Part shown: piece by piece, positions 18,539-61,130 of the stretch
Layout of the letters: each line of letters opens with the position of its first letter
How positions within the stretch are numbered: the first letter of the stretch is position 1
Origin: an uncultured SAR116 cluster alpha proteobacterium
Lineage (GTDB): Bacteria; Pseudomonadota; Alphaproteobacteria; Puniceispirillales; Marisalimonadaceae
DNA: 64,000 nucleotides
Reading direction: 5' to 3'
Assembly: GCA_902593735.1 (NCBI GenBank)
Contig: CACJJL010000008.1
Coordinates: 1 to 64,000 of the forward strand
Program-made: the position numbers and the translations under genes
Notes under the pieces: generated by a model
Database searches by the model: none
Told to the model about the DNA's origin: nothing
The model's input: the letters and a program-made list of their open reading frames with translations, nothing else

Positions 18539-18826
18539 TTTTTTTTATTACCTCCTACTCAATATTGCTACTATTCAAAAAAAAATGCTAGAATTATATA
18601 TTAAGTGTGCTTTTATTAATTAAAATTTAATTAAAATAGCTCAATTTATTATCTTATTATTTATATAACCACAAACTTAGCATATTGTTTCCTATATGAG
18701 GCCAATTATGTTACAATTATGTTAATTGCTTCTATTTTGGAAAGAATTATATTCCATTTACCTATATTCTCTTATGCATTTTTTTATCTTATATATATTA
18801 ATATGAAGGAATAAACCTTCTCTAAT
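18539..18826 (+). other. 288-base intergenic region ahead of the DUF1127 gene
   Basis: Divergent spacer between the ExbB-like gene and the DUF1127 gene, with no credible reading frame. A sigma-70-like pair TTGCTT (18726-18731) and TATATT (18748-18753) with a 16-base spacer could drive the DUF1127 gene. A second TA-rich box lies at 18791-18800. I saw no clear heat-shock-type promoter. Confidence 0.35.
18805..18820 (+). promoter_or_regulatory. Hairpin in the DUF1127 leader
   Basis: GAAGG (18805-18809) and CCTTC (18816-18820) flank AATAAA, so the only purine-rich ribosome-site-like sequence ahead of the DUF1127 ATG can be masked in a five-pair hairpin. It may modulate translation. The stem is short and could be chance. 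Confidence 0.35.
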
Positions 18827-19099
18827 ATGAAAGAAAAAGAAAAGACAATGAAAAATGCATTTTTAGCAAGATTAAATAATTATATTACGACCGCTTTTGA
18901 AAATATTGCTTTAACTAGAACAAGACAAGCATTAATTAGCTTAGACGATCGTACATTGGCTGATATTGGATACACAAGACAGCAAGTATTAAACGGAGAG
19001 TTCTTTAACGTAACAGACGTAGTTGACTTCCCAGCAGGTAAGTTAGGTGTAGAAAAGTCAACACAAGATAATAAGGCTAATGAAAAGGAAGCTGCGTAA
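18827..19099 (+). CDS. DUF1127 family small protein
   Basis: A 90-residue protein whose DUF1127 motif LISLDDRTLADIGYTRQQV lies at about residues 36-54. Proteins of this family in alphaproteobacteria are small, stress-regulated and Arg/Lys-rich; CcaF1 of Rhodobacter sphaeroides binds RNA. ATG 18827 and ATG 18848 (MKNAFLARL) are both possible starts; the second begins at the usual family N-terminus. The 3' region carries two CCUCC-loop hairpins and a strong terminator, the layout known for ccaF1 and its CcsR RNAs. Confidence 0.9.
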   Translation: MKEKEKTMKNAFLARLNNYITTAFENIALTRTRQALISLDDRTLADIGYTRQQVLNGEFFNVTDVVDFPAGKLGVEKSTQDNKANEKEAA

Positions 19100-19104
19100 G
19101 GAAT

Positions 19105-19145
19105 TTAAGAATTAGTATCCTATCCTCCTCCCCTGGATATTAATG
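19105..19145 (+). ncRNA. CcsR/cuckoo-like hairpin RNA, copy 1
   Basis: Ten-pair stem ATTAGTATCC (19111-19120) with GGATATTAAT (19135-19144), including one G-U pair. It displays a 14-base loop that contains CCTCCTCCC at 19124-19132. That loop is complementary to Shine-Dalgarno sequences and is the defining motif of CcsR/cuckoo RNAs, which lie downstream of DUF1127 genes in other alphaproteobacteria. It begins 12 bases after the DUF1127 stop and would be processed from the 3' UTR. Assignment rests on structure, motif and position. Confidence 0.75.
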
Positions 19146-19150
19146 AAAGA

Positions 19151-19205
19151 TGGTGACATAACATAGAACTCAAATCCTCCCCCAAGGAAGTCATTATGTC
19201 ATCTG
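19151..19205 (+). ncRNA. CcsR/cuckoo-like hairpin RNA, copy 2
   Basis: Outer stem TGACATAA (19154-19161) pairs with TTATGTCA (19194-19201). The enclosed region carries CCTCCCCC at 19176-19183, a variant of the anti-Shine-Dalgarno loop motif. Inner pairing is weak. It directly follows copy 1 and precedes the shared terminator, so both are likely produced from the DUF1127 transcript. It is more diverged than copy 1, so confidence is lower. Confidence 0.6.
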
Positions 19206-19212
19206 AATAAGC

Positions 19213-19243
19213 AAGGACGAAGGTCACATCCTTCGTCCTTTTT
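19213..19243 (+). terminator. Rho-independent terminator of the DUF1127-sRNA transcript
   Basis: Perfect eleven-pair stem AAGGACGAAGG (19213-19223) with CCTTCGTCCTT (19230-19240), loop TCACAT, followed by further T residues. It is one of the strongest hairpins in the window and ends the DUF1127 and small-RNA transcript. Confidence 0.92.
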
Positions 19244-19297
19244 CGTTTGGGAATAAAATTTCAATGACTAATTAAAGAAAATTTAATATGTTAAGTA

Positions 19298-20188
19298 ATG
19301 CCTAAATTTTACCTTCACTACTTTAACCAAAGATTATCAAATACATTAATTGGGACTATTTTACTCATTTTAACTTATTTATTTTTCTCCGTTATGGAAT
19401 TAACAGCAAAAGAATTAGTATTAAGATTTAATCCTTTTTTAATTGTATTTGCTCGTTATTTATCTCAATTAATTTTATTACTTATAATATTCAATAAACA
19501 ATTTAAAACACACCTTAAAAGTAATTATAAACCATTACAAATTCTTAGGGGCGCATTATTAATGATAACAACCTGTTTTATGTTCACTGGTTTAGCATAC
19601 CTACAATTTGCAGAAAATATTTCAATTTACATGATTGGTCCTGTAATAACTACTATATTAGCCATTTTAATCTTAAAAGAAAAAATATCATTTACGCAAA
19701 TATTAGTAGTGATTATTGGTCTAATTGGTGCATTAATTATAGCTTCTCCCAATAAAGGTGAATTTAATTATGCCGTTATTTTCCCATTTTTAGCAGCTTT
19801 GTGTTTTGCTTTTTTTACTATTTCAACAAAATTTCTAAATACATCTGATAGCAATCAAACTACTCTTTTATTTACAGCTATAACTGGTACTATTTTGTCA
19901 TTACCGTTTATAATATATTTTTGGAAATGGCCAAACTTAAGCGACAGTATTTTAATGTTTTGTTTAGGTTTTTTAGCCACAGCAGGTCATTTCTTATTTA
20001 TTGAAGCTCTAAAATTAATTAATGCTTCTTTTGCTGCTCCATTTGTATATTTAACAGTACTTCTAGCGGCTTTTTGGGGGTATCTCTTATATGATGAGAC
20101 ACCAAGTCAGAATACATTTATTGGTGCATTCTTAATTATTACTTCTGGATTTATAATTACACGATTAAAAAAGAAAAATTTCAAATAA
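19298..20188 (+). CDS. DMT family transporter (EamA domains)
   Basis: A 296-residue protein with ten predicted membrane helices in two EamA repeats (about residues 15-145 and 155-290). The helix-3/4 region with RGALLMITTCFMFTGLAYL and the repeat-2 end VYLTVLLAAFWGYLLYDE are family hallmarks. Members export or import metabolites such as amino acids; the substrate is not predictable. It starts at ATG 19298 with no strong ribosome site. The AEC permease follows 30 bases downstream and may be co-transcribed. Confidence 0.88.
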   Translation: MPKFYLHYFNQRLSNTLIGTILLILTYLFFSVMELTAKELVLRFNPFLIVFARYLSQLILLLIIFNKQFKTHLKSNYKPLQILRGALLMITTCFMFTGLAYLQFAENISIYMIGPVITTILAILILKEKISFTQILVVIIGLIGALIIASPNKGEFNYAVIFPFLAALCFAFFTISTKFLNTSDSNQTTLLFTAITGTILSLPFIIYFWKWPNLSDSILMFCLGFLATAGHFLFIEALKLINASFAAPFVYLTVLLAAFWGYLLYDETPSQNTFIGAFLIITSGFIITRLKKKNFK

Positions 20189-59778: not shown

Positions 59779-59858
59779 CATATATTTTAAAATTATTATA
59801 TTTTTAATACACAAATATCTAATTTACAACTTTAACATTAACAAATTTGGAGGTTAAT

Positions 59859-61130
59859 ATGAAGAAAAGTTTAACAAGACGTAATATGCTCAAGACCTCG
59901 ACTGCAGCAATTGGTGCGGTCGCCGGTGCAGGGTTGCTTAAAGGTTTTCCAGCAATACACGCTGCTGATGCCCCAGTTATTAGATATCTAGGAACAGCTG
60001 TTAATATGGGTGATGCAGTTCAAAAAAGATTATTTGATGATACAGGAATTAAAGTTAAATTTATTGTTAAAACAACTGATGAGGTTGTTAAAACAATTTT
60101 TACACAACCAAATAGTTTCGATATAGTTGATTCTGAATATTTTAGTATGCCTAAATTGGTACCTTCTGGAAATTTATTGGGTATGGATACCAAAAGAATT
60201 AAAGAATGGGACAACGTAACTTCTGCTTTTACTAAAGGTGAAGTTGCAGGAAAGAAAATTGGAGATCAAGGAACCGCCCCAAAAAAGGTTATGTACCTTA
60301 AAGGTGCCAAATCCAAAGAATTTGCCTCAGAGCCAACTCAATACGTAACATTAATACCTACCGTTTATAACGCTGATACTTTAGGTATAAGACCTGATTT
60401 AATTAAAAGACCAATTAATACTTGGGCAGAATTGTTAAATCCAGAATTCAAAGGTAAAGCTTCAATTTTAAATATACCATCAATTGGTATAATGGATGCT
60501 GCCATGGTGGTAGAAGCCATGGGTGAGTATAAGTATCCTGATAAAGGAAACATGACTAAAGAAGAAATTGATTTAACAATGAAAATTTTCACAGAAGCAA
60601 AGAAAGCAGGTCAATTTAGAGCTTTCTGGAGTGATTTTAACGAAAGTGTAAATTTAATGGCCTCTGGTGAAGTGGTAATACAATCAATGTGGTCACCAGC
60701 AATCACTGCAGTTAGAACAAAAGGTATTCCATGTGTCTATCAACCTCTTAAAGAGGGTTACAGAGCCTGGGCAGCAGGTTTTGGATTACCTTCTACTACA
60801 AAAGGAAGACAGGCTGATATTTGCTACGAATTTATAAATTGGTATTTATCTGGTTGGGTAGGTGCTTATTTAAATCGTCAAGGTTACTATTCAGCTGTTA
60901 TTCCAACTGCAAAGAAGTATATGAAAGCTTATGAGTGGGATTATTGGATGATGGGTAAACCTGCAACGGCTGACATTATGAGTCCAGAAGGTAAAAAATT
61001 AGCTTCTAAAGGTGAAGTAAGAGATGGCGGATCTTACGAAGCAAGAATGGGCGGTGTTGCATGCTGGAATGCTACCATGGACGAAAATAAATACATGGTA
61101 AGAAAATGGAATGAGATGATCGCATCCTAA
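59859..61130 (+). CDS. ABC transporter substrate-binding protein (PotD-like, Tat signal)
   Basis: A 423-residue extracellular binding protein with a twin-arginine signal (LTRRNMLKT, followed by a hydrophobic stretch and FPAIHA cleavage region, mature near residue 36). It has the PotD/Fbp fold; WNATMDENKYMVRKWNEMI closes it. I chose ATG 59859, with GGAGG upstream; TTG 59847 would overlap that ribosome site. Tat export of a binding protein suggests folding or cofactor needs or just tight control. The ligand is unknown; hydantoins, pyrimidines or allantoin are plausible from the neighbouring racemase and upp. Confidence 0.92.
   Translation: MKKSLTRRNMLKTSTAAIGAVAGAGLLKGFPAIHAADAPVIRYLGTAVNMGDAVQKRLFDDTGIKVKFIVKTTDEVVKTIFTQPNSFDIVDSEYFSMPKLVPSGNLLGMDTKRIKEWDNVTSAFTKGEVAGKKIGDQGTAPKKVMYLKGAKSKEFASEPTQYVTLIPTVYNADTLGIRPDLIKRPINTWAELLNPEFKGKASILNIPSIGIMDAAMVVEAMGEYKYPDKGNMTKEEIDLTMKIFTEAKKAGQFRAFWSDFNESVNLMASGEVVIQSMWSPAITAVRTKGIPCVYQPLKEGYRAWAAGFGLPSTTKGRQADICYEFINWYLSGWVGAYLNRQGYYSAVIPTAKKYMKAYEWDYWMMGKPATADIMSPEGKKLASKGEVRDGGSYEARMGGVACWNATMDENKYMVRKWNEMIAS

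Follow-up and report, generated by a model that had tools for sequence, protein, structure and literature searches.

The locus described here raises the question of whether the hairpins that follow a short DUF1127 gene in an uncultured SAR116 bacterium of the ocean, with a streamlined genome, are regulatory RNAs acting on other messages, or whether they form only the folded end of the message that carries them. The gene lies in a stretch of 64,000 nucleotides that was analysed as a whole and is called the window throughout. Our best explanation, to which we give a probability of about 0.72, is a CIN1-type locus in which a single transcript would yield both a DUF1127 protein and cuckoo/CcsR-like anti-Shine-Dalgarno (anti-SD) RNAs that block ribosome-binding sites. 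The two parts of this reading differ in strength: that the locus is a CIN1-type RNA locus we predict with high confidence, and production of the RNAs and their binding to Shine-Dalgarno (SD) sites are likely by analogy with characterised systems. Where published systems are described below, the descriptions follow extracts of the papers cited.

The folded region behind the DUF1127 gene

The features of the locus, all of them on the forward strand, are the following.

18729..18759, + strand: conserved upstream element TTTCYATTTTRGAAA...TTCCATTT, a putative operator or promoter, recognised by eye in relatives and by a pattern scan
18805..18820, + strand: short hairpin GAAGGAATAAACCTTC in what is presumably the 5' leader, seen in the sequence and assigned with low confidence
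18848..19099, + strand: gene for a small DUF1127 protein of 83 aa (PF06568, E 3.8e-7, residues 24-47; also from relatives)
19111..19144, + strand: hairpin 1, with the anti-Shine-Dalgarno loop CCTCCTCCC at 19124-19132, from the fold and comparison with relatives
19152..19203, + strand: hairpin 2, with the diverged loop CCTCCCCC at 19176-19183, from the fold and comparison with relatives
19213..19243, + strand: intrinsic terminator of eleven pairs followed by a T-run, also present in 23/23 aligned loci

The DUF1127 stop codon occupies 19097-19099 and hairpin 1 begins 12 bases on; at the other end of the gene, an alternative start at 18827 is unlikely, since many relatives carry in-frame stops between 18827 and 18848. 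Hairpin 1 consists of ten pairs (19111-19120 with 19135-19144) around a loop at 19121-19134 that reads UAUCCUCCUCCCCU. The outer stem of hairpin 2 likewise has ten pairs (19152-19161 with 19194-19203) and encloses CCUCCCCC, part of which forms, in the predicted fold, a small inner stem of CCU with AGG, while the terminator pairs 19213-19223 with 19230-19240 before running into T's. An earlier sequence-only reading of this DNA had described the ten-pair hairpin with CCTCCTCCC, the second hairpin with CCTCCCCC and the eleven-pair terminator, and folding confirmed all three. Additionally, a mini-ORF within hairpin 2 (ATG-GTG-ACA-TAA) was considered and dropped, its letters being accounted for by pairing alone.

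Taken as a whole, the 3' region is more stable than its shuffled versions, with 199/200 dinucleotide shuffles folding worse (z -3.41). The window contains a single copy of the CCTCCTCCC nonamer, where chance would give 0.05, and its two further copies in the genome lie within or antisense to coding sequence. Hairpin 1 by itself is not significant in the window sequence when set against shuffled flanks, 86 of 300 shuffles folding equally well, so its support is the comparison with relatives. Single sequences from most loci of the genus do not stand clear of shuffles either, with 6 to 113 of 300 folding equally well, and in genera g2 and g4 the energy of hairpin 1 clearly beats shuffles (0 to 2 of 300 as good). 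The description of the region as a GC-rich island is weak: the 144 bases have 39.6% G+C against 31.3% for the window, and 6.7% of all 144-base stretches are equally high. Searches with Rfam 15 returned no match at gathering score in the whole window, and the eight matches at E up to 10 in 18700-19400 were every one far under their gathering scores.

Conservation in the family and the known RNA families

A protein search of 101 genomes gave a DUF1127 match in 35, namely 34 of the 58 genomes of the window's family (36 loci) and one genome from another family of the order. Comparison across relatives was the test that the sequence-only reading had set for itself, and it did not refute that reading: the loop core is present in every one of the 36 family loci, and there are compensatory changes in the stems. 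In 36/36 TCCTCC is no more than 75 bases away from the stop codon and is unpaired in the predicted fold. Hairpin 1, hairpin 2 and terminator occur together in 22 loci of the genus and one locus of genus g3; in genera g2 and g4 the 13 loci carry a single hairpin with other stem letters, and a terminator.

When the 23 loci with both hairpins are aligned, 16 of them have the full CCTCCTCCC nonamer in hairpin 1 and the remaining seven retain TCCTCCC, the loop thus varying outside its core. The loop of hairpin 2 reads CCTCCCCC in 17/23 and CCTCCCC in 6/23; its divergence, already pointed out from the single sequence, extends to the whole alignment, with CCTCCTCCC absent from hairpin 2 in 23/23. In these loci 99.1% of stem cells are paired, and double-sided changes occur in 10 cells against 3.0 in shuffles (0/500 shuffles as high), but few pairs are affected (3 of 35 overall and 2 of 10 in hairpin 1), and further pair types were not above shuffles (10 against 9.3; 149/500). 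Related sequences may exceed shuffles without any structure, as the tool itself warns, so we give greater weight to the sister genera, in which the stems have been replaced. Constraint was measured on 21 of the 23 loci, leaving out one with a cut gene (L026) and one from the other genus (L045). Mean pairwise identity was 88.5% in the 3' UTR versus 68.1% at the fourfold-degenerate sites of the DUF1127 gene, and reached 100% for TCCTCCC, 94.4% for the hairpin 2 stem, 89.7% for the hairpin 1 arms, 82.1% for the whole hairpin 1 loop and 76.7% for the linkers.

These patterns bear on an alternative that we consider rather improbable, according to which the hairpins are a structured 3' UTR and nothing else, shielding the DUF1127 mRNA from 3' exonucleases and setting its half-life, with loops that have no outside partner. 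Such a role would suit hairpins placed between a stop codon and a strong terminator, and it would sit well with the rarity of strong SD partners, which precede 28/778 ORFs against 11-15 for control motifs. However, protection needs no invariant loop core, and here TCCTCCC is invariant in 21 loci of the genus, while TCCTCC stays unpaired in all 36 family loci although the stems around it have been replaced. Furthermore, the same combination of loop and gene type defines a characterised RNA family elsewhere.

A covariance model run against the 101 genomes returned its 23 source loci as strong matches, all behind DUF1127 genes, and under stricter filters no further strong matches in that set. We saw no orphan copies of the RNA, the weak model matches (34 bits or less) falling mostly on the opposite strand of the same terminators.

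RS0680a is one of the CcsR RNAs of Rhodobacter sphaeroides. Anti-SD loops have been reported for it (PMC3927594), and CIN1, the association of short DUF1127 proteins with CcsR-like sRNAs, is described as frequent in alphaproteobacteria (PMC10253847). The R. sphaeroides-like architecture that the sequence-only reading had proposed, with a DUF1127 gene, anti-SD hairpins and a terminator, is indeed the CIN1 arrangement given in that source. As in the CcsR1-4/ccaF1 locus of R. sphaeroides (PMC10253847, PMC8625941), we find a DUF1127 gene, candidate sRNAs in its 3' UTR, an intrinsic terminator and one presumed transcript. There are also differences: four CcsR RNAs are described there, whereas the SAR116 window has two hairpins and its sister genera one; an RpoHI/RpoHII promoter is reported there, whereas the candidate promoter here is a conserved upstream element; and the SAR116 locus, unlike CcsR, combines 31% G+C with a diverged second loop.

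The cuckoo family, as presented with CIN1 in PMC10253847 and PMC10746234, shares with SAR116 the CCUCCUCCC loops, the variable stems and the adjoining short DUF1127 gene, and hairpin 1 has just this constitution, with CCUCCUCCC in a constant loop on stems that vary. Multi-hairpin members of that family (alpha-r14, SmelA075/A099) are described as carrying the motif in every hairpin, whereas hairpin 2 of SAR116 is without it in 23/23 loci; the SAR116 RNAs also differ in the 7/23 hairpin 1 loops that retain TCCTCCC only and in having no Rfam 15 family match. Families with three and four hairpins and CCUCCUCCC-type loops have been reported (PMC3927594), as has the alpha-r14 family with three (PMC10746234). 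The tandem CCUCCUCCC-loop hairpins of Sinorhizobium NfeR1/alpha-r14 and SmelA075/SmelA099 (PMC10746234, PMC3927594) resemble the arrangement seen here, and in that system pairing at a translation start has been shown for ntrB. The Sinorhizobium sRNAs are described as trans-encoded, whereas those of SAR116 lie in the 3' UTR of the DUF1127 gene; and NfeR1 is described as having its own sigma-70 promoter, under LsrB and NtrC control. On the sequence evidence, the SAR116 locus fits the known families in its order of genes, in hairpin 1 and in the terminator, and departs from them in hairpin 2, in the number of hairpins and paralogues and in genome context. The family is therefore one already known; among the literature matches listed we found no report of such RNAs in SAR116, whose membership appears to be new within that set.

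In the CIN1-type reading that we prefer, a transcript starting upstream of the DUF1127 gene and ending at the terminator would be processed in its 3' UTR, probably by RNase E as in R. sphaeroides, to release one or two short RNAs. Hairpin 1 would then offer CCUCCUCCC for pairing with GGAGG-type sites, leaving the mRNA untranslated or destabilised. The DUF1127 protein would probably aid RNA maturation, like CcaF1. Hairpin 2, with its partly closed and diverged loop and its sequence-conserved stem, could speculatively be an element for processing or protein recognition, or else a weaker anti-SD hairpin. As the sequence-only reading proposed, the module may serve stress regulation and hairpin 2 may have a different target range. 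One line of published work counts against our best explanation: DUF1127 proteins act on PhoR in A. tumefaciens, and YjiS of Salmonella shows no RNA binding (both in extracts of PMC12501420), so by analogy these proteins may instead act via protein-protein contact.

Shine-Dalgarno sites and candidate targets

If the RNAs act as proposed, the messages within their reach should be few. The 16S rRNA 3' end encoded in the genome is GGATCACCTCCTT, which has CCTCCT in common with the hairpin loop. GGAGG precedes the start in just 1 of 54 window ORFs of 120 aa or more, and GGAGG-N4-9-ATG occurs 168 times over the available genome, as opposed to 99 times for the reversed control. The 28 of 778 ORFs mentioned above, with GGAGG at SD spacing, come from 858 kb (47% of the genome), and since control motifs of the same composition gave 11-15, roughly half of these sites may be genuine. 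An anti-SD RNA in this genome would accordingly be expected to affect a small set of mRNAs, and the scarcity of strong sites makes the real targets of anti-SD sRNAs a question small enough for testing.

As to which messages these might be, Pfam searches of the 28 GGAGG genes identified five solute-binding proteins (SBP_bac_8, TctC and three DctP), and none among 40 ORFs drawn at random from the 750 without GGAGG, although a DctM permease and an ABC ATPase did turn up there. A homology search seeded by the five binding proteins added three more, all without GGAGG, and a Fisher test on this set is circular because the five GGAGG proteins had seeded it. Signal peptides were not enriched among the GGAGG genes (7/28 against 161/750, p 0.40). 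One of the candidate targets lies in the window itself, an SBP_bac_8 solute-binding gene at 59847-61127 (+ strand) with GGAGG before its start. Candidate targets of NfeR1 are described as mostly encoding ABC transport systems (PMC10746234). The idea that solute-binding mRNAs are selective targets is a post hoc and speculative lead.

Two further alternatives can be weighed. It seems very unlikely that the anti-SD loops act in cis, binding the leader or ribosome-binding site of the DUF1127 mRNA to which they belong and limiting its translation: AAGGA before the DUF1127 start in sister genus g2 and GAAGGA in the window's leader, both seen by eye, would offer partners, but the predicted pairing of the loops with their own start region is nil (-0.7 and +0.2 kcal/mol), and GGAGG was not seen by eye at the DUF1127 start region in the genus. 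The least credible account, in which the loops imitate the 16S 3' end and either titrate an SD-binding factor or rival 30S subunits on many mRNAs, can draw on the shared CCTCCT but would encounter few bindable mRNA sites, and two gene copies would hardly match the rRNA.

Upstream control, paralogues and lineage

The element at 18729..18759 is the probable operator or promoter of the locus. A scan with the 31-base pattern, allowing up to three mismatches, found it only at the two DUF1127 loci of a genome sequence that is 84% complete (reversed control 0), and by eye it is kept between genera. A sigma-70 consensus scan of the promoter region yielded nothing above chance. Many relatives of the genus, though not all, have by eye a GAAGG...CCTTC akin to the leader hairpin. 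At the other end of the gene, all 37 DUF1127 proteins listed have a C-terminus in -AA (e.g., KEAA or KKAA; in the window at 19076-19099), which we take to resemble a ClpX-type C-terminal degron, and the proteins may thus be short-lived. A tmRNA (RF01849), sought for comparison of its tag with the -AA ends, was not found in the incomplete genome.

The module is present twice in the genome. Locus A, in the window, is flanked by an ExbB-like gene on one side and EamA on the other, and locus B (L042, G000:C9:33552-34050) precedes a ChrR-like cupin gene. A tree of the 3' UTRs intermingles the two, the locus label needing 8 changes compared with a shuffle mean of 6.8-6.9 in a tree where most forks are weakly supported. 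In genome G013 the nearest 3' UTR of each copy is the other copy, which is not so in G000; in G030 the contigs leading toward EamA and toward the cupin gene begin with identical 77 bases of UTR; and in G041 lineage-specific letters are common to both copies. With just two genomes having both copies whole, this suggests homogenisation between loci A and B, which would account for contig breaks at the module.

Such breaks bear on whether the module is truly lost from the 24 genomes of the family that gave no hit in the DUF1127 protein search. The EamA gene was found in 10 of them and not in 14, and in all ten the contig ends shortly before the EamA start codon, at 122 bases in G030 and at 3-10 bases in the other nine. 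This last interval recurs beside the repeated 3' UTR in nine assemblies (L194-L200, L202, L203). The exact position of the break may be due to the trimming of contigs when single-cell genomes are assembled, a protocol of this kind being given in one unrelated paper (PMC10262491). Since contigs of several assemblies break beside the repeated 3' UTR, gene-content tables may miss a module that is present.

The low-G+C subclade of the lineage is described as having 30.55% G+C and median intergenic spacers of less than 25 bases (PMC8547437), and the window, with 31% G+C, appears to belong to it, an assignment made by similarity and not by a tree. That a region of about 145 bases is retained twice under strong constraint despite such short spacers argues that it is needed. 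A bolder version of our reading, which we regard as doubtful, is that, in a streamlined genome that has lost most strong SD sites, an anti-SD RNA once of broad reach now selectively controls the few mRNAs that retain such a site, including those of high-affinity nutrient-binding proteins, with two homogenised-looking loci supplying the same RNA from two contexts and hairpin 2 providing the DUF1127 protein with a handle.

Of the 35 named records with a DUF1127 alignment, 27 are labelled as SAR116 cluster, 7 have no finer label than alphaproteobacterium or Proteobacteria, and the last is labelled Cryomorphaceae. In this last record, a metagenome-assembled genome (L066), a close DUF1127 relative adjoins an ExbB-like gene; the label is probably a binning error. 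Outside the family, a DUF1127 match occurs in 29 genomes from two further families of the order, and 16 loci were read, one per genome. CCTCC stands between stop and terminator in 10 of these, all from family f4, and the other six, including all three f2 loci read, lack a CCTCC hairpin there. When the ten f4 loci were folded with 30 bases of gene end, CCTCC lay in a stem-loop in 10/10 and was unpaired in 9/10, being partly paired in L121. In genus g17 (L122, L123, L124, L127) the anti-SD hairpin begins while still in the coding region, its 5' arm being made up of the final codons together with the stop codon, and its loop follows directly behind the stop. Both loci from genus g13, which belongs to a different SAR116 family (L116, L117), have an extra CCTCC-loop hairpin upstream, and the DUF1127 gene is thus placed between anti-SD hairpins, one on each side. 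Across a class-wide sample, DUF1127 occurs in 90 of 240 genomes; 30 loci were read, and in two of them the full nonamer appears no more than 300 bases away. One of these two (L148) carries five copies of CCTCCTCCC in the 300 bases behind its DUF1127 gene.
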